Positions 4,620 to 33,704 of a DNA stretch of 34,148 bases are shown one piece after another. The notes beneath the pieces were generated by a model. That model had not been told where the DNA came from. It worked only from the letters and a program-made list of their open reading frames with translations, and made no database searches. Origin of the DNA: a virus. The position numbers were made by a program, and so were the translations under genes. Location of the stretch: IMG/VR virus record IMGVR_UViG_3300012204_000002, positions 1 through 34,148 of that record; one strand, written 5' to 3'. The stretch's first letter is position 1, and every line of letters starts with the position of its first letter.

Positions 4620-5533
4620 ACGGCATTCACTCGGCCCTCATCGGAGGCAACGATGCGGCGGCCGATCCATTCAACGACCTGCGGCACGACCGCGTTTCCG
4701 AGTTGGCTGACCTGGCGCCGTCTGATGCCTCCGCCGTCGCTGACGATCCGGGGCGGCTCCCATTCGTACTGTGGCCCCGGAGGGGCGGGCCATCGGTGTC
4801 CGTCCAACCCGACGGAAAGCCCATCAGGAGCTCGCACCAGCGCGGGTTCAATCTGCGGCCACTCTCGTTGGCTGACGCTCGCGGCGTTGGCCATAGGCGA
4901 ACGGCGATTGCCAGAGGCACCCCGAAACCGTTGCCGTTGGCCTGCTTCCTCTTCTGCTGTGCGCGGCGCCGCATCCAGCCTGTCAGGCTCTCGCCCTCGT
5001 TGAAGTTCCCCGCCGCTGGGGTGGGCCACAAGCCAGAGGCGATCGCGACCCTGGGGGGAGCCGACGGTGTGCGCCGGTATACAGTCCCATTCCGACTCAT
5101 ACCCGAGCGAGACCAGGTCACCAACGACTTCTTCGATAGGTGCTGGGTGCCACAGTCCGCATCCGTCCTTGTCGAGCCAAGGCCAAAGGAGCCCTGGAAC
5201 GTTTTCCACGAAGACGTAGCGGGGTCGAAGCTCGCAAATGGCACGGGCGAACTCCGGCCAGAGCCACCGCTCATCGTTCTGCGCATGCCGAAGCCCGGCC
5301 GCACTGACGGGCTGGCAAGGGAATCCTCCGGCCACAACGTCAACGGGCTCGACTCCGCTCCAGTCGACGGCGGCGATATCGCCATAGATGGGGAGGCCGG
5401 GCCAGTGGCGGGCAAGGACGTTGCGGCAGTGGGGGTCGATCTCGCAGAACCAGCGAGTGACCATGCCGGCACGCTCCAGACCGAGGTCGATGCCGCCAAT
5501 GCCAGAGAAGAGGCTGCCGACGCTGAGGGCCAT
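4616..5533 (-). CDS. DNA (cytosine-5) methyltransferase
   Basis: A 305-residue C5 cytosine methyltransferase, which transfers a methyl group from S-adenosylmethionine to cytosine in a specific DNA site. All key motifs are present: SAM-binding GSLFSGIGGIDLGLERAG (residues 6-23), catalytic GGFPCQPVS with Cys73, ENVPGLL (110-116), QGRDRLWLVA (161-170), a short variable target region (about 175-270) and QLGNAVVPQV (277-286). Nothing is truncated. With no partner restriction enzyme nearby, it most likely protects phage DNA from host restriction or mimics host methylation. One base separates its ATG from the stop of the winged-helix gene, and no good ribosome site is seen. The same DNA is open in a second frame (see 4627-5607). 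Confidence 0.93.
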   Translation of the reverse strand: MALSVGSLFSGIGGIDLGLERAGMVTRWFCEIDPHCRNVLARHWPGLPIYGDIAAVDWSGVEPVDVVAGGFPCQPVSAAGLRHAQNDERWLWPEFARAICELRPRYVFVENVPGLLWPWLDKDGCGLWHPAPIEEVVGDLVSLGYESEWDCIPAHTVGSPQGRDRLWLVAHPSGGELQRGREPDRLDAAPRTAEEEAGQRQRFRGASGNRRSPMANAASVSQREWPQIEPALVRAPDGLSVGLDGHRWPAPPGPQYEWEPPRIVSDGGGIRRRQVSQLGNAVVPQVVEWIGRRIVASDEGRVNAV

Positions 5534-5607
5534 GTCACGCGACCAATCCCATGCCCATCTGCTCCCCCGCTCCCCGCAAGCGTCGGGCCGTATCTCGAAT
5601 AGCCCAC
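4627..5607 (-). other. Second open frame across the methyltransferase gene (possible overprinted product)
   Basis: The same strand stays open for 326 codons in another frame across the whole methyltransferase. It is not random in appearance: it reads FASFDPATSSWKTFQGS, LVTWSRSGMSRNGTVYR, two LWPTP blocks, and LNPRWCELLMGFPSGWTD. From memory, proteins with the 'SSWRTxQ...WPRSGM...WPTP...LNPxWVEWLMGFPxGWTD' signature are annotated in many phage and bacterial genomes, often as methyltransferase-related. The signature lines up codon for codon with methyltransferase motifs (WPTP over VAHP, LMGFP over PDGL). It may be a genuine dual-coding region, or the known family may itself come from alternate-frame reading. 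Confidence 0.35.
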
Positions 5608-5861
5608 GCCGTTACCGACTGCGAGCGGATGCGTCCCCGCAGCGAGCGGTAGGTGGCCTCCAGCTCACGATAATCGGCGGTCAGCCAGACGCCGTCCGGG
5701 CCGCTCGCGATCGCCTTGCCCTGGAGCCGGAGGTCCTGCACCGCCTGCTCCACGGCACGCCGCGGCCAGTCCAGGGCTTCTGCCAGGTCGCCGAGGCGGC
5801 AGGCGCGGTCACGACCCCACTCCAGACGCGACAGGACGGCTTGTGCGGGCCAGTCCGTCAT
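5535..5861 (-). CDS. Winged-helix DNA-binding protein, 108 aa
   Basis: A 108-residue protein with a winged helix at residues 1-65: AVLSRLEWGRDRACRLGDLA, then the recognition region LDWPRRAVEQAVQDLRLQGK, then a wing strand GVWLTADY. A basic helical tail follows. Such small proteins regulate transcription or load replication proteins. It directly precedes the methyltransferase, so it could control it, as C proteins of restriction-modification systems do, though it does not look like a classic C protein. ATG 5861 follows AGGCG. The 85 bp upstream hold no supported gene, only a weak GC hairpin at 5887-5905. Confidence 0.65.
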   Translation of the reverse strand: MTDWPAQAVLSRLEWGRDRACRLGDLAEALDWPRRAVEQAVQDLRLQGKAIASGPDGVWLTADYRELEATYRSLRGRIRSQSVTAWAIRDTARRLRGAGEQMGMGLVA

Positions 5862-5946
5862 CGGTCGCCTGTGAATGAATGGGAAGGCGGGGTCGTCTGC
5901 CCCGCGGCTTGAGTCGCAGGCACGTGGGCCACAGACTCATCCCGGC

Positions 5947-6180
5947 TCACGACAGCCCGAGCCCTTCTTGGACAGGCGACTGGACACGAGGATGCTGCGG
6001 ACAGCGCAACGGCAGCAACCGGAACTCCGACTCCGGCATGTGAGTCAGGCGCTTCTCCCAGTGCTTCGCCGCGAAGCCCCGCATCTCCGCCTTCTCAGCC
6101 AGGTGTTCAACGATTACGGCACTGATGCAGCCGCAATCCTTCTGAGCGACAAGGAACATCGGCTCGCTCACCGCCGTCAC
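5947..6180 (-). CDS. Conserved phage protein with CGC motif, 77 aa
   Basis: A 77-residue protein. MFLVAQKDCGCISAVIVEH near the start and LRCPQHP near the end make a possible C-x-C...C-x2-H metal site. From memory, small actinophage proteins with 'ARKxCGC...' openings are frequent and uncharacterised. GTG 6180 overlaps the upstream TGA (GTGA) with AAGG ahead of it. It ends 85 bases before the next gene, one of the few breaks in the coupled run. Confidence 0.65.
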   Translation of the reverse strand: MTAVSEPMFLVAQKDCGCISAVIVEHLAEKAEMRGFAAKHWEKRLTHMPESEFRLLPLRCPQHPRVQSPVQEGLGLS

Positions 6181-6407
6181 GTCTGCACCTTCTCCCAGCC
6201 GTCATCGAAGCGCCCCGACTGCTCAGAAGGATGGAAGCCGAGGGCTGCCCAGGCGGTGATCCCCCACCAGCCGAAGACGTCCTCCAGAGTCAGCACCTTA
6301 CGGCGGTAGCTGCCGTCATCGGTGAAGCCGGCGACACAGGCGTTGGGCCGATCGTCCTCTAGACGCTGCGGGTAGCGGGCGGCGAGGGACCAGATCTTCG
6401 GGCTCAC
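6177..6407 (-). CDS. Hypothetical protein, 76 aa
   Basis: A 76-residue soluble protein beginning MSPKIWSLAARYPQRLEDDR, with an aromatic middle (LEDVFGWWGITAWAALGFHP). GTG 6407 overlaps the upstream TGA by GTGA and follows AGGAGGCC. Its stop overlaps the next GTG in the same way. No motif or family is recognised. Confidence 0.6.
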   Translation of the reverse strand: MSPKIWSLAARYPQRLEDDRPNACVAGFTDDGSYRRKVLTLEDVFGWWGITAWAALGFHPSEQSGRFDDGWEKVQT

Positions 6408-6853
6408 TTCGCGGCCTCCTCATCGAGGAGAGCGATAACTTCCCGATAGCGCTTTGGACTGATGCCGGACTTCTGCTTCTGAAACCCCTTGCGAATTCGT
6501 TCTACGACCTCCCGCTTCAAGTCGATCTCGACCGCTTCGGCAGCCCGCTGGAGTGCCAATCGCAAATCCCGGCGACCACGCTCATACTCGGCAGCGAGGG
6601 CTTCGTCTAGCAGCGAGTCCAGCAGGGCTGGGGGGTCAGGAGCAACATCATCGGGAGCATCCTCAACAGGCGGCTCGTCAAAGGTGCGAGCGCCATTGCC
6701 GGGCTTCCAGGCTGGAACAGGAATGGCAGTGAAGATACGAGCGGCTCGGCCTTGCAAGGAGTCGCCATCGTTTTTGCGAAGCGGAAGACCGTAGTTAGTG
6801 GCTTTGAGTGCCGCAGCAAGCTCTGCAAGCGTCACCAGCTTCGAGGAGGTCAT
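6404..6853 (-). CDS. Helical/coiled-coil hypothetical protein, 149 aa
   Basis: A 149-residue protein in two parts. The N-terminal 65 residues (SSKLVTLAELAAALKATNYG ... WKPGNGARTF) are mixed. After an acidic Pro-rich linker, residues 75-149 form a long charged helix (EALAAEYERGRRDLRLALQR, VVERIRKGFQKQK), probably a coiled coil. ATG 6853 overlaps the upstream stop by ATGA. The helix suggests a dimer or a partner-binding role. No family is recognised. Confidence 0.65.
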   Translation of the reverse strand: MTSSKLVTLAELAAALKATNYGLPLRKNDGDSLQGRAARIFTAIPVPAWKPGNGARTFDEPPVEDAPDDVAPDPPALLDSLLDEALAAEYERGRRDLRLALQRAAEAVEIDLKREVVERIRKGFQKQKSGISPKRYREVIALLDEEAAK

Positions 6854-7074
6854 CGCGGTTCCCATTCCTGGCAGTAACAAAAGCCGCCCACTCGTTCTGA
6901 ATCAGAGGCAAGACACGATTGGCCCTTGGAATGCACGCAATAGCGGTGACCGCACCAGCATGTTGACCGTCGGTCCTGACGAGCCGGGACAACCTCAACC
7001 TGCGGATGACACCAGCAGTCATTGGACATGACGTGTAATCGTTCCGCAGCCTCGTTGCGTGCCTCAGTGCTCAT
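6850..7074 (-). CDS. Cys-rich zinc-binding small protein, 74 aa
   Basis: A 74-residue protein with many Cys and His residues: NDCWCHPQ, STCWCGHRYCVHSKGQSC and FCYCQEW. The spacing could hold two zinc ions. ATG 7074 overlaps the stop of the preceding gene by ATGA. It is one of several small metal-ribbon proteins in this block, which may bind host proteins or nucleic acid. No specific family is recognised. Confidence 0.65.
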   Translation of the reverse strand: MSTEARNEAAERLHVMSNDCWCHPQVEVVPARQDRRSTCWCGHRYCVHSKGQSCLASDSERVGGFCYCQEWEPR

Positions 7075-9138: not shown

Positions 9139-9971
9139 GCCGCTCGTCCCACCGCGCACATCCGCTCCAGCAGGTCCTCAGCCGATGCCTGTACCTCCTT
9201 GACCGTCTCAGCGAGCGCCGCATCCAGCAGTGGCCGCGCAGCCTTGTAGGCCGCGTCGTACTGGGCGCTGTAGCCGTTCTTCTTTGAGGCGGCGTCCTCG
9301 GCGGCGTCCCCAGCGGCGGCCCTGGCGGCGGTCCAGGCGGCGGCCCCAGCGGCGGCCCTGGCGGCGGTCCAGGCGGCGGCCCTGGCGGCGTCCCCAGCGG
9401 CGGTCCCGGCGGCGTCCCCGGCGGCGGCCCAGGCGGCGTCCCCGGCGGCGTCCCCAGCGGCGGCCCTGGCGGCGGTCCAGGCGGCGTCCCTGGCGGCGTA
9501 TGCAGCCTCCTTGGCATCCTCGATGATCGGCTGCACTTTGCGCGCCAGCGCGGTGCTGGTGAGCTCGTCCAATGCCCGCAGCTTGGACGCATGCTCGGTC
9601 AGCCCGGCCTTGTCCAGCCACAGCGGCGTGAAGGTACGCACTAGCCAGTCGGTCGCCAGCCAGGATCGGGTGCCATCATCGGCCTTGCTCGTAGCCGTAC
9701 CGACCATGATCGGGATGAAGCGCTTGAGCCGCTGCCGGCCGTCGTCGTCGAGCGAGTCGTTCCACGATCTGCCGAAGGCCCCGATCACCGGGCTCACGCA
9801 CTTGGGCGCATCGCTGAACGGCTGGCCCTGCATGTAGGCGACCGCCTCCAGCAGGCACATCCCCTTCTTCGGATCGGTATGAGCGCCCTTCTCCAACTTC
9901 AAGGAGCGCAGCCAGGAGCGCCAGTTCTTCATGCGGATCGCGGGCCTCCCAGCAGCCAGGCCACCGGTCAT
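9135..9971 (-). CDS. Conserved protein with Ala-rich tetrapeptide repeats, 278 aa
   Basis: The N-terminal 140 residues resemble a conserved phage/bacterial family: KKGMCLLEAVAYMQGQPFSD, KCVSPVIGAFGRSWNDSL, RLKRFIPIMVGTA and LATDWLVRTFTPLWLDKAGL. Then about 17 four-residue units of the form (T/D/A)AA(R/G/W/E) follow, encoded by 12-bp GC-rich repeats, before a short C-terminal helix. The repeat should form one long Ala-rich helix. I recall the family with similar repeats but no known function. ATG 9971 was chosen for GGAGGG and ATGA overlap; ATG 9932 is the alternative. Confidence 0.75.
   Translation of the reverse strand: MTGGLAAGRPAIRMKNWRSWLRSLKLEKGAHTDPKKGMCLLEAVAYMQGQPFSDAPKCVSPVIGAFGRSWNDSLDDDGRQRLKRFIPIMVGTATSKADDGTRSWLATDWLVRTFTPLWLDKAGLTEHASKLRALDELTSTALARKVQPIIEDAKEAAYAARDAAWTAARAAAGDAAGDAAWAAAGDAAGTAAGDAARAAAWTAARAAAGAAAWTAARAAAGDAAEDAASKKNGYSAQYDAAYKAARPLLDAALAETVKEVQASAEDLLERMCAVGRAA
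9290..9500. repeat. 12-bp GC-rich tandem repeat
   Basis: About 200 bp of imperfect 12-bp units built on ggcggcN repeats (for example gcggcggccctg) code for the AAxx units of the Ala-rich protein. Every unit keeps the reading frame. The array should be prone to slippage, so copy number may vary between relatives. Confidence 0.8.
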
Positions 9972-10509: not shown

Positions 10510-10538
10510 ACCTTAGACGGTGCTAGTACCACTGTCAA
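10510..10538 (-). promoter_or_regulatory. Promoter of the early leftward operon, leaderless type
   Basis: On the minus strand TTGACA (10538-10533), a 17-bp spacer and TAAGGT (10515-10510) match the sigma-70 consensus well. Only six bases separate the -10 from GTG 10503, so transcription should begin at or next to the start codon. It lies in the 38 bp between the tail-tip gene and the LuxR-type gene, exactly where late genes end and early genes begin. Confidence 0.75.
10519..10530. promoter_or_regulatory. Candidate operator in promoter spacer
   Basis: GGTGCTAGTACC is a 12-bp palindrome with one mismatch, lying wholly within the spacer between the -35 and -10 boxes. A dimer bound here would block or remodel polymerase binding. 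The adjacent LuxR-type protein is the natural candidate ligand. A host regulator is also possible. Confidence 0.45.
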
Positions 10539-20812: not shown

Positions 20813-21241
20813 CTAGGCCAGCGTGAAGATGCCGCTCGCATGTAGCGCAATGGTCAGGGTATTGCCATTGGTGGCGGTCACATCAGCGGGGGTGCTATCC
20901 AAGAGGCAGTAGCACACCACGTCCCCGCCTGACTCGTACAGGACGGCGAAGCGGGCCGTGATGCTCCCTCCCGAAGCGGTCCACACCATGTCCGCCGGAT
21001 CGTCGACCGTGACCGTCGTTGTTCCCGACAGGGTCAGCGCGCCCAGCGAGATGCCGCCAGTGGTGTAGCCGTTGGCGTTGGCGTGCTCGTTGGTCACGCC
21101 GGCATAGGTCGTACTCGCGGCGCCGATGTTCGAGGTTGACAGGAACAGCGCCACCTTGAAGGTGTCGGTATCGAAGTCGAAGGTGCCGTTGAGCATTCGC
21201 GTGCGGGCACCGTCGGTAAAAGTCCAGGCTCCAGCAGCCAT
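20813..21241 (-). CDS. Conserved phage structural protein, 142 aa
   Basis: A 142-residue strand-rich protein: GAWTFTDGARTRMLNGTFDF, TFKVALFLSTSNIGAAST, YAGVTNEHANANGYTTGG, TTVTVDDPADMVWTASGGSI. From memory this family is widespread in phages of uncultured bacteria, near capsid genes, and its role is not settled. A head decoration or head-tail interface role fits. ATG 21241 follows GGAG. Confidence 0.75.
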   Translation of the reverse strand: MAAGAWTFTDGARTRMLNGTFDFDTDTFKVALFLSTSNIGAASTTYAGVTNEHANANGYTTGGISLGALTLSGTTTVTVDDPADMVWTASGGSITARFAVLYESGGDVVCYCLLDSTPADVTATNGNTLTIALHASGIFTLA

Positions 21242-22218: not shown

Positions 22219-24981
22219 TTAGGTCAGGTAGCGCAGCGTGCGACCAGCGTCGACATTGATCGGCGCCGCGTGGTTGCGCCACATGGCGTAGATGGCCTGC
22301 TGCCCGGTGACGAGGTTGCCCTGAGCACCGCCGAAGATGAACGGGATGAGCTGGATGCTCATGCCGACCCGGTCGACAATGACGTAGGAGTCCACGTTGA
22401 GCAGCGTGCCAATCACGATGTTGGCCGTCTGTGCCGTCGGCAGCGAGGGCGACTCGTTGACGGGGTACATCAGCAGCCGCAGGCCGGTATTGCCCGTCGC
22501 ATCGAGCATCGGGTTGCCGACGGCTGGGTACTGGCTACCACCGAACAGCTTGCCGCCGGTCGTCTCCAGCGACTGCGCCCGGCGGATCGAGACACGGTTG
22601 AAGAACCACTGCGCGTTGAAGCGATGCCGCACCGGCAGCGCCGCCTCAGTGGCGTCGAAGTCGGCCGCCGCCAGCGTGACGCTGGTGGCGGTGGTGATCG
22701 AGGTGTAGGCACCTGACGTGCCGTTGACCGGACCGACCCCGATGGAGGCTGTGCCGGCGCCGGCGCCAGTGGCGAACGAGGTCTCCTCCTCGTTGTCCTT
22801 GGCCTCCTGGATCAGGACCGCCATCTCGGACGACAGGTCCGGACGATCCTGCCCCATCTCCAGCGAGTAGGTGATCTGGGCCTGCACCCGCTTGACGATG
22901 TACTGAGGCTGGGCGAAGGTCGGTCCCTGCTCAATGGCCGCTGCCGCCTCAGTCGTGCGGGTGGCCACCACCGCCGTGGCGGTCAGCGCGTTCCAAGTAT
23001 CGGTGCCCACGATCGGCACCACCCGGCAGGCGCGCCGATAGGGGTTGACCGCACCGTTGTTGACGCCGATGGCGATGACGGTCGGGTCAAACGCGAACGG
23101 CACGGCGAAGCCGCCGGTCGCATCCACGCCCACCGCCAGTGCCGTGCCTCGCTGCTCTTCGGGCGTCAGGTAGTCCTTCTGCCCGCGCAGGATCTTCTCG
23201 AAGGCCCGCTTGTAGACCGGCGAACCGGTGGCCTTGATGCGACGCGCCAGCTCCTTGTCCTTGGAGTCGTGGTAGTCGAGCAGCCAGGCGATTTTATCGC
23301 GTGAGGCTTCGACGTCGGTATCAGGATGGGGGAAGGTGACAGTCTTCTCGGTGATACGCAGGGCGTCATCGCGATAGAGCTGGTTTCGCTCCTCCATGTT
23401 GCGAGCACCGGGCGTGTCGAAGCTAAAGGGATCGCGGTTGTCGCGGTTGATCTGGTTGATTTGAGGCGGCTCGAACACGCGCTCGAGCTGCTTTGGATCC
23501 TTGGCTCGGGTCTCCAGCAGCGCCTGCCGGCTATCCCAGGCGGCGACGTCAGCGCGCAGCGCGTCACGCTCCGCGACATCCGCATCCCAGCTGGTCTGCT
23601 CGTCTTCGGGCAGAACACCGGGGTACGCGATCGCCTGACGCTCCAACGCCTCGTCGAGCTCGGTCACCCGAGCCCGCTTGTCTTCGATGGTGGTGAGTTC
23701 CACGGGTTTACTCCTGTCATCAGAAGACCCCTCGTCTGAGGGGCCTTCGGGGGCTGGTGCCGGCTGCGCCGGCTCTAGGTCAGTCCGTGGAGTGTCCGAA
23801 CTCGGCGGCTCCTCTTCAGGAGTGTCCGGCTGCGGCGGCTCACTGAGTGTCGCTGCTGCTCCGGCATCCACCGGAGTGCGGGCGTTGGCGGCAGAACGAA
23901 GCAGTGTCTCGAACGACTCGGGATCACGGCTGCGCTGATAAAAGAGGTCGGTCGTGGAACGAGCCCCGACCGTGGCATTGGGATTGGCCGGGAAGGTGAC
24001 CGGCCCGAATTCGTAGACGCGGGCCTCGGTGATCGTCCGCTCGGGAATGGCCTCGGGGTTATGGTCCGAACGCTCTGGGCTGTGATCCCAGAGGTCCTTC
24101 TCGACGGTGAAGCGGAAGGAACTGCCGTACACGCCCGCTATCAGACCGGGCGCCAGATCTCGGTTGTAGGACGTGTCGAACAACGGCACCCGAAAGGCAG
24201 GACCGATTTTGTCCGTCCGCAGATCCTCGATCGGCCCGAGGATCTTGTTGCCGATCTGCGGATCCTGACCATGGTCATACAGGACCTTCATGGCCCCGCG
24301 ATCATCGTTGCTTTTACGGATGGTCTTATCGAAGGCGTCTGGTCTGATGCTCTCTAGGAAATGCCCCTCGATCCAAGAATCCACCTCGTACCAGTCACCG
24401 AAGGTCGAGAAGTGGCCGGTCATGGTTGGCATCGCGCCATCGTCATAGCGAGCTTCAACCTTGGCACCCACCGCTCGCGTGACGGGGAACGGAAGGCGGG
24501 CAGGAGGTAGGGTCTTGAGCGTCATACGGGCTTCGCCTCCAGGCTGAGCGCTGGCCTCATCAGATGGCAGGCTATGGTCGTTGAACAGATGGTTGTAGCC
24601 GCAGGAGGTGGTGCCCTTCTGCTTGACCCGAGCCCGTGCATTAGCCAGATGGACCGGATCCACCTTGCCCTTAGCATCATGGTGCGGGTAGTGACGCAAG
24701 CTACGGGGAGTGGTCTTGCCGTCCTCGTCCTTCTTGCCGCCGGCGTCGATGCACGCGAATGATGAATCTGGAAGATCCGAGATCGGCGTCCCGCCGATCT
24801 CTCCTTCAGCGCGCACGGCCATACTTGAAGCCTCCGGTTCGTTGGCGTACAACGCGGCCAGCTGCTTCTCGGCAGCCGCCTTGGTGGCGTGGCATCCGGC
24901 CACGGAGTCGTCGCTGTCCTTGATGACCGCGAAGAGCTTGGAGTCAGGGCATTCAACCGAGGTGCCGATATGCCAGGGCAT
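22219..24981 (-). CDS. Prohead protease-scaffold-major capsid fusion, 920 aa
   Basis: One polypeptide joins three usual genes. Residues 1-150 are an N-terminal extension with two small modules (GCHATKAAAEKQLAALYANE; LPDSSFACIDAGG ... HLANARARVKQ). Residues about 160-345 are a U35/S78 prohead protease with LYDHGQDP (His237), YGSSFRF (Ser287/288) and ITEARVYEFGPV. Residues 370-500 are an acidic Pro-rich, then coiled-coil, scaffold-like delta region. Residues about 540-920 are the HK97-fold capsid (ATGGFAVPFAFDPTVIAIGV ... RNHAAPINVDAGRTLRYL). The protease would have to free the capsid domain during maturation. Internal ATGs at 24822 and 24525 have GGAGG sites and may give shorter products. Confidence 0.9.
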   Translation of the reverse strand: MPWHIGTSVECPDSKLFAVIKDSDDSVAGCHATKAAAEKQLAALYANEPEASSMAVRAEGEIGGTPISDLPDSSFACIDAGGKKDEDGKTTPRSLRHYPHHDAKGKVDPVHLANARARVKQKGTTSCGYNHLFNDHSLPSDEASAQPGGEARMTLKTLPPARLPFPVTRAVGAKVEARYDDGAMPTMTGHFSTFGDWYEVDSWIEGHFLESIRPDAFDKTIRKSNDDRGAMKVLYDHGQDPQIGNKILGPIEDLRTDKIGPAFRVPLFDTSYNRDLAPGLIAGVYGSSFRFTVEKDLWDHSPERSDHNPEAIPERTITEARVYEFGPVTFPANPNATVGARSTTDLFYQRSRDPESFETLLRSAANARTPVDAGAAATLSEPPQPDTPEEEPPSSDTPRTDLEPAQPAPAPEGPSDEGSSDDRSKPVELTTIEDKRARVTELDEALERQAIAYPGVLPEDEQTSWDADVAERDALRADVAAWDSRQALLETRAKDPKQLERVFEPPQINQINRDNRDPFSFDTPGARNMEERNQLYRDDALRITEKTVTFPHPDTDVEASRDKIAWLLDYHDSKDKELARRIKATGSPVYKRAFEKILRGQKDYLTPEEQRGTALAVGVDATGGFAVPFAFDPTVIAIGVNNGAVNPYRRACRVVPIVGTDTWNALTATAVVATRTTEAAAAIEQGPTFAQPQYIVKRVQAQITYSLEMGQDRPDLSSEMAVLIQEAKDNEEETSFATGAGAGTASIGVGPVNGTSGAYTSITTATSVTLAAADFDATEAALPVRHRFNAQWFFNRVSIRRAQSLETTGGKLFGGSQYPAVGNPMLDATGNTGLRLLMYPVNESPSLPTAQTANIVIGTLLNVDSYVIVDRVGMSIQLIPFIFGGAQGNLVTGQQAIYAMWRNHAAPINVDAGRTLRYLT

Positions 24982-31835: not shown

Positions 31836-32222
31836 TCACGCCAGCCATGACATGGAGAATGGCTTGCCGGGGCAGCTCCGCGGTTGCTTGCTCCAGCCGG
31901 CATGCTTGCCCGGTTTTGGGTCGCAGGTCACCGGAGCCAGTGTCGGTAGCGGGGCGATGGTCGGTAGCGGCAGCGTGGGAGTCGGCAGCAGGCTCGGCGT
32001 CGGCAGCGGTGGAAGGATTCCGGGCGTCGGCGTGGGCTGCGGACTCGGTGATGGCTGCGCAGATTGGCTAGGAACTGCCGTGGATGGAGACGGGGTGATG
32101 GTGACGTACACGATCTGCGGCGTCGGCGATGGCTGCGCTACCTCCGGCGTCTCCGGCAGGGCCATGGCGCCCACGCGCGTGACGACCACCAGGGCTGCCA
32201 GAATGGCGAGGAGCCGGATCAT
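31836..32222 (-). CDS. Secreted or membrane-anchored Pro/Thr/Ser-rich protein, 128 aa
   Basis: A 128-residue protein with an N-terminal hydrophobic segment (MIRLLAILAALVVVTRVGAM, signal peptide or anchor), then about 70 residues of Pro-Thr-Ser repeats (PSPTPQIVYVTITPSPS, PSPSPQPTPTPGILPPLPT) and a C-terminal Cys/Lys patch (CDPKPGKHAGWSK). The stalk would stand off the membrane, like a spanin or a cell-wall-crossing tether. It lies right after a holin-like gene. A spanin role is only a possibility. ATG 32222 overlaps the holin-like stop (ATGA). Confidence 0.7.
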   Translation of the reverse strand: MIRLLAILAALVVVTRVGAMALPETPEVAQPSPTPQIVYVTITPSPSTAVPSQSAQPSPSPQPTPTPGILPPLPTPSLLPTPTLPLPTIAPLPTLAPVTCDPKPGKHAGWSKQPRSCPGKPFSMSWLA

Positions 32223-32458
32223 GGCAGATGGTATCCATCGCGCCGCTCGCGGCGTAGATCAGCGACCAGCTCCAGCGCACCCTTGGCCAGGCCCAGGGCG
32301 ACTTCCTTCTGACCGCGCTCGTAGGCGATGTCCTCCTCTTTGCCGTCGAGCTCGTCTTTGGTGTGCAGCCAGCCCATCAGAAAGCCGACGATGATCAGGC
32401 CCGCGATGCCCAGCGCGCCGCCGGTGGAGATGACATCGAGGATTGCTTTGGCATCCAA
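32219..32458 (-). CDS. Holin-like / single-pass membrane protein, 79 aa
   Basis: A 79-residue protein: MDAKAILDVISTGGALGIAG, then LIIVGFLMGWLHTK completing one membrane helix (about residues 13-31), and a long charged C-terminal helix (EEDIAYERGQKEVALGLAKG). Short amphipathic single-helix proteins with charged tails are common phage holins. As the first gene after the leader terminator, it should be made as soon as late transcription reads through. TTG 32458 follows GGGGGAG. Confidence 0.65.
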   Translation of the reverse strand: MDAKAILDVISTGGALGIAGLIIVGFLMGWLHTKDELDGKEEDIAYERGQKEVALGLAKGALELVADLRRERRDGYHLP

Positions 32459-32475: not shown

Positions 32476-32503
32476 CAAAACGAAACCGCCGGGATGCGGC
32501 GGT
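32476..32503 (-). terminator. Intrinsic terminator before lysis genes
   Basis: ACCGCCG (32503-32497) pairs perfectly with CGGCGGT (32491-32485) around the loop CATCC, and TTCGTTTTG follows. A 7-bp GC stem plus T-rich tail is a standard rho-independent terminator. It lies about 75-100 bases after a strong promoter and 20 bases before the first lysis gene. Confidence 0.8.
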
Positions 32504-32578
32504 ACCAGATTCAAGAGATGGGGCAGCGTCTCATGGGACCATGCGCCGCCAAACGCGGCTGCGGGAGACGCCCTGATT
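32476..32578 (-). ncRNA. Structured leader RNA, about 100 nt
   Basis: Between a strong promoter and an intrinsic terminator lie about 100 bases with no usable ORF. They fold well by eye. An outer stem GCGTCTC/GAGACGC (32571-32565 with 32532-32526) encloses hairpin GCCGC-GTTTG-GCGGC (32559-32545, extended by GC/GC past a bulged A) and a small ATG/CAT hairpin, a three-way junction. GGCGG of the inner hairpin could instead pair with CCGCC of the terminator. It looks like a short constitutive RNA comparable in position to lambda 6S RNA. Confidence 0.6.
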
Positions 32579-32584
32579 GCGGCG

Positions 32585-32611
32585 ATTCTAGCACCCGCTA
32601 CGGAATGTCAA
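32585..32611 (-). promoter_or_regulatory. Promoter for leader RNA and late genes
   Basis: TTGACA (32611-32606) and TAGAAT (32590-32585), the latter preceded by TGC (extended -10), on the minus strand just after the stop of the gene at 32619. The 15-bp spacer is shorter than the best 17, but the extended -10 would compensate. Transcription should start near 32578. Confidence 0.7.
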
Positions 32612-32618
32612 GCGGGAT

Positions 32619-33023
32619 TCAGCGAACGACTGCATAGACAGGCTGTGTGAACTCCGCCCCTTCTGGCCCTTTGACGTAGGGAGCGATCCACGTAAGCCGA
32701 TGGCCTTGCTGACTCGGAAGCCATTGCGCTCGGAAGTGACCGCGAACCCACCAACGATGCTTCCATTGAACGACATGACCATCCTTATCCTGACGCTCAC
32801 GATCTGTGACAGGCTGTCGCAGCGTGATGAAGTGAACGAGCGGCTCATCTTCGACGAGCCCTTGTCTCAGCACTTCCCGACGAGCGGCACGATCAGGGCG
32901 TTGAGGGCGTGACACAACGAATGGAGAGTTCAGGAATGCGAAAAACTTCAGCATTGCCTCTTGTACCGTTCCAGGCTGAATGTCACCGGGGTATGACTGA
33001 CCCCACTTCAGAAGGAAACCCAT
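32619..33023 (-). CDS. Conserved hypothetical protein, 134 aa
   Basis: A 134-residue protein whose end carries a recognisable pattern: HRWWVRGHFRAQWLPSQQGH followed by WIAPYVKGPEGAE. From memory, this ending is frequent in actinobacterial and phage proteins of unknown role. The N-terminal part (KFFAFLNSPFVVSR) is helical. ATG 33023 has no ribosome site. The frame stays open about 20 codons upstream (CYLFCGGGDPQRHV) without a standard start, so the true N-terminus may lie there. It is the last gene before the late promoter. Confidence 0.65.
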   Translation of the reverse strand: MGFLLKWGQSYPGDIQPGTVQEAMLKFFAFLNSPFVVSRPQRPDRAARREVLRQGLVEDEPLVHFITLRQPVTDRERQDKDGHVVQWKHRWWVRGHFRAQWLPSQQGHRLTWIAPYVKGPEGAEFTQPVYAVVR

Positions 33024-33080: not shown

Positions 33081-33704
33081 TCAAGCCGCATCGTGAAACG
33101 ACGGCGAGCGCCGCGTGCGACACATCTCGCAGTCGGGGTCCAGCGCTATCTCTGCGCGCTCATGCTCCCAGTGAACGAGGCGGGCCATCACGAAGCGCTC
33201 CCCTGCCGACACTAAGCGATCCGCTCTGGGGTAGCTGATGCCCGCCTGCTCGGCTGCCCACTTCAGCGAGGTTCCGCCTTCAACCATTGAGCGCAGCATG
33301 GTGGCGCACACCGGACCCAGCGCGTGGTCGGTCCAAGAGGGGAGACGATGTCTGCGGCGACAGGTCCGCTCCCATTCTGCGAGGGCACGGCGCACGGGGT
33401 AGCGGGGTGCATAAAACGACAGTTCCCCCAGCGACCCGATCAGCGTCACCATCGCCGCCGACAGGTTGCGGCCGTTGGCGTCGGCCGGCTCCGCCTCTTC
33501 GATCACCTCGTAGTGGCCGCGGACCTCCTGGACGGTACGGACAACTGGCGGAGCGGCGGAGGTCAGGCGCTGCACCGTCAGCGTTTCCTCCATGAAGTCG
33601 AGGCGGAGCTGCGAGATCATAGCCGAGCACTTCCGCACCAGGGAGCCGGTCAACCACCAGGCGGACACGGCATCGAGCTCCTTGTCGGTCAGCAGCGGCT
33701 TCAT
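33081..33704 (-). CDS. Helix-turn-helix protein, candidate late-gene regulator, 207 aa
   Basis: A 207-residue protein. It starts MKPLLTDKELDAVSAWWLTG, has a mixed middle, and ends with a helix-turn-helix at about residues 143-170 (EGGTSLKWAAEQAGISYPRA) and a C-x2-C (CEMCRTRRS). ATG 33704 overlaps the HNH stop (ATGA) after GGGGAG. It lies just upstream of the promoter-leader-terminator module that guards the lysis genes. Lambda Q, also about 207 residues, has that place, and phages of other hosts put late regulators there. The role is inferred from order plus the HTH. Confidence 0.6.
   Translation of the reverse strand: MKPLLTDKELDAVSAWWLTGSLVRKCSAMISQLRLDFMEETLTVQRLTSAAPPVVRTVQEVRGHYEVIEEAEPADANGRNLSAAMVTLIGSLGELSFYAPRYPVRRALAEWERTCRRRHRLPSWTDHALGPVCATMLRSMVEGGTSLKWAAEQAGISYPRADRLVSAGERFVMARLVHWEHERAEIALDPDCEMCRTRRSPSFHDAA

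Follow-up and report, generated by a model that had tools for sequence, protein, structure and literature searches.

A candidate late-gene gate with a short-spacer promoter and a terminator upstream of the lysis genes of an uncultivated phage

Does a 160-bp gap in a phage genome hold back the late genes as the Q/pR'/tR' switch does in lambda? The window (the whole stretch of DNA analysed, 34,148 nucleotides of IMG/VR record IMGVR_UViG_3300012204_000002) is a phage genome, circular and complete: the 123 bases at its start recur at its end. Its gene-like ORFs are on the minus strand. Its terminase large subunit was less than 60% identical to those of isolates, and IMG/VR contained 80 relatives of it with identities of up to 82%. 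The gap (32618-32459, minus strand) lies between a 134-aa gene, which ends at 32619, and a gene for a transmembrane (TM) protein, which starts with TTG at 32458; no DNA-level similarity to this region was found in the annotated phage collection. We suggest that the gap is a late-gene gate, a switch resembling Q/pR'/tR' with an unrelated regulator that would act by antitermination, and we give this reading a probability of about 0.5. The features concerned are the following.

33081-33704, minus strand: p207, 207 aa, candidate late regulator (from homologues and predicted structure)
32619-33023, minus strand: 134-aa protein, encoded between p207 and the promoter, with phrog_15934 as its C-terminal domain
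32585-32611, minus strand: putative late promoter, TTGACA (32611-32606), 15-nt spacer, TGC-TAGAAT (-10 hexamer 32590-32585), from the sequence, with a 15-nt-spacer promoter in the corresponding position of L007, L204 and L205
32591-32605, minus strand: spacer, candidate binding site of p207 (from base conservation read by eye)
32504-32578, minus strand: interior of the leader RNA, predicted to start 7 nt after the -10 hexamer (from folding)
32485-32503, minus strand: intrinsic terminator hairpin ACCGCCG-CATCC-CGGCGGT, 7 bp (6 G-C), tail TTCGTTTTG, from the sequence, with counterparts in the related loci L007, L204 and L205
32219-32458, minus strand: 79-aa single-TM protein with a charged tail, holin-like (from position and a Kyte-Doolittle peak of 2.14 near the N-terminus)
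31836-32222, minus strand: 128-aa protein with an N-terminal hydrophobic helix and a Pro/Thr-rich body, lysis-cassette member by position (4-bp overlap with the TM gene)
10510-10538, minus strand: comparison promoter TTGACA-N17-TAAGGT, likely early; the GTG (10503) of a 67-aa LuxR-type HTH gene follows 6 nt later

On the minus strand the gap held, in order, TTGACA, the 15-nt spacer, TAGAAT, about 80 nt, the terminator hairpin and then the single-TM gene, whose TTG start was 26 nt beyond the terminator. An initial annotation had noticed a TTGACA/TGC-TAGAAT promoter and a 7-bp GC hairpin with a T-rich tail in a 160-bp gap upstream of a holin-like gene. Both were recovered, the promoter on the minus strand and with a 15-nt spacer that had gone unremarked; a stock promoter scanner limits spacers to 16-18 nt and so misses it. 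The roughly 100 bases described as ORF-free were indeed free of credible genes, although mechanical ORFs overlap them. The pattern TTGACR-N15-TANNNT occurred a single time in the whole window, in the gap. The terminator by itself was at chance level (1 found against 1.8 expected), as would suit an ordinary gene boundary, with a terminator of upstream early genes next to a chance promoter-like sequence. The combination of promoter and terminator, and its place, is well above chance.

Homologues of p207 were found in three relatives, L007 and, added by profile search, L204 (contig G022) and L205 (contig G023); clear matches to the p207 profile were confined to these and the window. In all three, the promoter TTGAC(A/G)-N15-TANNNT came after p207 and was itself followed by a leader, then a terminator and finally a gene for a small TM protein. 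The conservation by which the initial annotation was to be judged extended to promoter and terminator (3/3), but the leader was clearly conserved between two of the four phages only, differing in the window and L205. A scan of 21 records for promoter plus terminator returned only the four p207 sites. The unit was present in 4/4 phages with p207 and in 0/17 related records without it (Fisher p = 2e-4, which is indicative only since related records are treated as independent; G017 and L023, among the 17, overlap). The gene at 33081-33704, already named in the initial annotation, is p207 and was linked to the unit in 4/4 phages. Different genes intervene between p207 and the promoter in L204 and the window, and in L205 the promoter starts at most 4 nt from the p207 stop codon. 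As the intervening genes vary, the constant pair is p207 and the promoter-terminator; the 134-aa gene is not a constant part, another gene taking its place in L204 and none in L205. The homologues in L007, L204 and L205 were more than 90% identical to each other (92-93% in DNA, even where the leader or TM gene is swapped) and 47-50% identical to that of the window, so that the four phages represent two independent p207 lineages. A promoter kept upstream of a terminator at an equivalent position in four phages, across two lineages this divergent, makes an ordinary gene boundary extremely improbable.

No syntenic relatives were recovered when the 134-aa protein, the TM protein and the gap DNA served as queries. 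A domain of the 134-aa protein also forms the end of larger proteins from unrelated phages, among them one of 330 aa in L002, and was present in a short ORF in L004; L002-L004 were dismissed as syntenic relatives, having only this domain in common and a different neighbourhood. No relatives of p207 or of the terminase were found in bacterial genomes. A weak second match to the p207 profile (G022:36302-36783, end of L215, E = 0.004), near the contig end, is possibly a partial duplicate. L007 also carried two predicted tRNA-Ser genes (gct, cga; 5919-6134) within a tyrosine-integrase-like ORF (5273-6577) and a weak tRNA-like match near 6900.

Downstream of the gap, the window encoded the TM protein, the Pro/Thr-rich protein, a weak DPBB_1 match (lytic transglycolase, below the curated cut-off), terminase and then portal, capsid and tail-like genes, all genes from 32458 to about 10542 being on the same strand. 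The 79-aa protein had no family match and appears holin-like by position and hydropathy only; the relatives carry a TM protein of the same design. Downstream of the unit, L204 carried an amidase (PF01510) and G023 an HNH gene together with homologues of portal and capsid proteins. The terminase gene of L007, by contrast, was located upstream of p207. p207 is unlikely to be a small terminase subunit, being missing from most phages with a similar TerL and lying apart from TerL.

Several other elements were recorded in these genomes. A terminator-like hairpin in the window (CCCCTCAGACGAGGGG, tail TCTTCTGAT, 23743-23728, minus strand) lies inside ORF 22219-24981, where it falls between a prohead-protease-like part and a capsid-like part of a single 920-aa frame; G004 and G020 had hairpins resembling it, with an identical tail, preceding genes of the same type. 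In G017 (L231+L232, about 33446, minus strand) and L023 (about 333), a gene resembling that at 20813-21241 of the window is preceded by a multi-hairpin leader that ends in a terminator; this may be a further gated structural gene, in records without p207. A 12-bp tandem repeat array at 9241-9540 of the window codes for an Ala/Asp/Arg-rich stretch of a 296-aa protein.

The spacer of the gap promoter was unusual for these phages. TTGACR-N15-TANNNT occurred once per p207 genome (4/4), always in the gap, and 14 relatives, amounting to about 980,000 strand-bases, had 1 occurrence. Among the other promoter-like sites of the 14 relatives, 17 and 18 nt were the commonest spacers (10 sites), and several sites of these lengths had an ATG start codon 6-9 nt after the -10 hexamer, which suggests that ordinary promoters of these phages are often leaderless. 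The window's promoter at 10538 probably opens the early genes and is likely leaderless as well. The late promoter departs from the norm of its own genome in both spacer and leader. Sigma-70 promoters with a spacer two bases below the optimum are expected to be weak unaided. Spacer positions 7, 12 and 13 (A, G, T) were invariant in 4/4 phages, and ACGYTGT was present in the spacer of the three phages with near-identical p207 (both read by eye); a search with a promoter pattern containing ACGNTGT returned these three known cases and one other. The promoter segment was 70-81% identical among L007, L204 and L205, including where the leader differs.

p207 is probably the factor acting at this gate. 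Pfam scans returned no match up to E = 0.1 for the window protein and none up to E = 1 for the L204 and L007 homologues, and by these scans p207 is not a member of the Q families PF03589, PF06530 and PF06323; in PHROG there was no match above chance and no Q family. Two AlphaFold models, from four sequences, had mean pLDDT values of 58 and 63; residues of the C-terminal half mostly exceeded 70, the HTH-domain part was at about 74-85 and the N-terminus was flexible. Foldseek gave no significant match to the models. Sigma region 4 domains predominated among the matches listed by a structural aligner for the C-terminal domain (65-69 residues aligned, Z at most 7.3, where values below 8 can arise from chance arrangements), and we take the resemblance of the modelled HTH domain to sigma region 4 as a lead. 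It is of interest because 21Q folds likewise, its helices 3-6 being similar to sigma region 4 (PMC6606751), and because the proteins Q, AlpA and GafZ, which have no shared sequence, all work between -35 and -10 (PMC6606751, PMC9371919, PMC11150451). 21Q and AlpA were absent among the matches listed in the structure searches, which is no evidence against kinship.

The nested complementary stems of the initial annotation reappeared in the predicted fold of the window leader, with a hairpin GCCGC-GUUUG-GCGGC inside a GCGUCUC/GAGACGC stem, but the folding was no better than that of shuffled sequences (z = -0.95 and -1.42). Across the phages z ranged from -0.8 to -1.5, with +0.47 in L205. There was no Rfam match at the gathering threshold in the window, and those over the element were at chance level (E up to 5). 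The leaders of L007 and L204 differed at 6/82 positions, against 18/90 (20%) at the fourfold silent sites of p207 (p = 0.026), and the genes flanking the promoter-leader block differ between these two phages on both sides. L205, compared with L007, had 92% DNA identity in p207, the same terminator and a TM gene 98% identical, together with a leader of near-random identity that retained a weak local similarity (p = 0.016). Phages seem to exchange the leader as one unit. Since it is swapped while p207 stays, it is unlikely to be what p207 recognises. The window leader showed no likeness to the relatives' leaders beyond chance, only two leaders (L007 and L204) were alignable for covariation, and a search with the core of these two gave nine matches, in which they were the only true cases. 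The word ATCTGGTA, common to the window and L007, was discarded as a motif, the two leaders being not alike beyond chance (p = 0.26); its pattern was found in more than 100 stretches, with a terminator behind that of L007 only, among those examined.

As a self-contained module, conserved between L007 and L204 beyond silent sites and swapped in L205, the leader could be a free-standing small-RNA gene, whose product, a phage RNA of about 90-100 nt, would act in trans, with the late genes transcribed by read-through or from upstream. We regard this as quite unlikely: no sequence or structure is shared by all four leaders, folding is at the level of shuffles, no Rfam family matches, and no other consensus promoter was found near the lysis genes. 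The initial annotation had also proposed that the inner GGCGG might pair either with its own hairpin or with the terminator arm. The inner GGCGG can in principle pair with the arm over 5 bp, but 65% of shuffled sequences did equally well and forcing the alternative fold costs about 7 kcal/mol, and we reject the RNA switch built on it, this pairing being no better than chance. For a cis-acting switch or attenuator of any kind, in which a ligand, translation or a protein would flip the leader between terminator and antiterminator folds, an indication came from L007 and L204, where GUGCC-CGAA-GGCAC competes with GGUGCCCGA/UYRGGCAYC and the differences are mostly pair-preserving (by eye). However, complementarity to the terminator arms was at shuffle level in 4/4 phages (p 0.27-1.0) and the window leader resembles no other beyond chance, and we consider such a switch very improbable.

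The preferred reading, a gate relieved by antitermination, can be compared with known late switches. As in lambda (Q, pR', 6S RNA, tR'), a regulator gene lies just upstream, followed by a promoter, a short leader and an intrinsic terminator, with lysis and head genes in one direction. By sequence, the locus also has the general layout of phage Q systems, with a terminator before the first lysis gene, the regulator upstream and the genes for lysis and structural proteins following downstream on the same strand. Unlike in lambda, the regulator has no PF03589 match, the spacer is 15 nt, there is no clear -10-like pause element and the leader matches nothing in Rfam. Such an element (xAnnnT), which Q and AlpA require, was not found within roughly the first 12 transcribed bases in the window or L205, although possible ones were seen in L007 (GAGCGT/CAACCT) and L204 (GAGCGT); that the window and L205 lack it speaks against a Q mechanism in the strict sense. 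With the Q Pfam families unmatched and the pause element missing, the system is Q-like in layout and not a member of the Q family. 21Q (PF06530) has a C-terminal domain like sigma region 4 in a crystal structure (PMC6606751), which the modelled domain of p207 may resemble, and a site between -35 and -10, as would be expected for p207; p207 has no sequence match to 21Q, and there is no direct-repeat TGAGCA site here. AlpA of Pseudomonas aeruginosa (alpBCDE lysis genes) likewise combines a promoter and terminator before lysis genes with an HTH regulator unrelated to Q by sequence, but no relation to p207 was found, and the window has no counterpart of the AlpA pause element (CACGAT at -1 to +5). 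GafY/GafZ of the Caulobacter gene transfer agent are a case of promoter-bound antitermination, plus activation, by non-Q proteins outside enterobacterial phages (PMC11150451); unlike here, two proteins and IHF are involved and the terminator follows the first gene.

The chief alternative is activation at a short-spacer promoter, either by itself or combined with antitermination in the manner of GafYZ. The 15-nt spacer would fit a promoter that needs activation at initiation: it would leave the promoter near-silent until p207 acted, and the terminator would trim leak or be partly read through. The constancy of this spacer in 4/4 phages, against 17-18 nt elsewhere, points in this direction, as do the modelled sigma-region-4-like fold of p207, the lack of a pause element in the window and the GafY/GafZ precedent for activation combined with antitermination. 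However, the terminator between promoter and first gene was kept in 4/4 phages, which initiation control only would hardly explain, and a purely activator-dependent late promoter is in our judgement possible but unlikely.

We therefore return to the gate relieved by antitermination. That the promoter-terminator gates the late genes is very probable, given its parts, their order and conservation, the link to p207 and the unusual spacer. If p207 is the factor, we somewhat favour antitermination as its mechanism. RNA polymerase would start at the 15-nt-spacer promoter, at the predicted start site, and produce a leader of about 90-100 nt that would end at the hairpin, so that the lysis and structural genes downstream would be kept off. 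p207 would then act at the promoter, most likely by binding the spacer through its sigma-region-4-like HTH domain, and the RNA polymerase so modified would read through the terminator, as Q enables at pR'/tR', rather than being merely activated. The lambda-like late control first proposed for this phage is thus supported in its layout, by conservation in four phages, the p207 link and the modelled domain; we infer the read-through.

It is doubtful, though conceivable, that the locus combines a regulator family unrelated in sequence to known antiterminators, a short spacer under selection and an exchangeable leader RNA with a function of its own. The leader might then, for example, tune read-through or act in trans on competing phages, and be swapped independently of the regulator and the lysis genes. 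The succession of regulator gene, 15-nt-spacer promoter, terminator and TM gene offers a signature for late switches in uncultivated phages. The promoter-bound antiterminators so far (lambda, 21 and 82 Q, AlpA, GafZ) have little or no common sequence. If p207 is a further kind, in phages seen only in metagenomes, promoter-terminator gating of lysis genes would be a solution that recurs widely.
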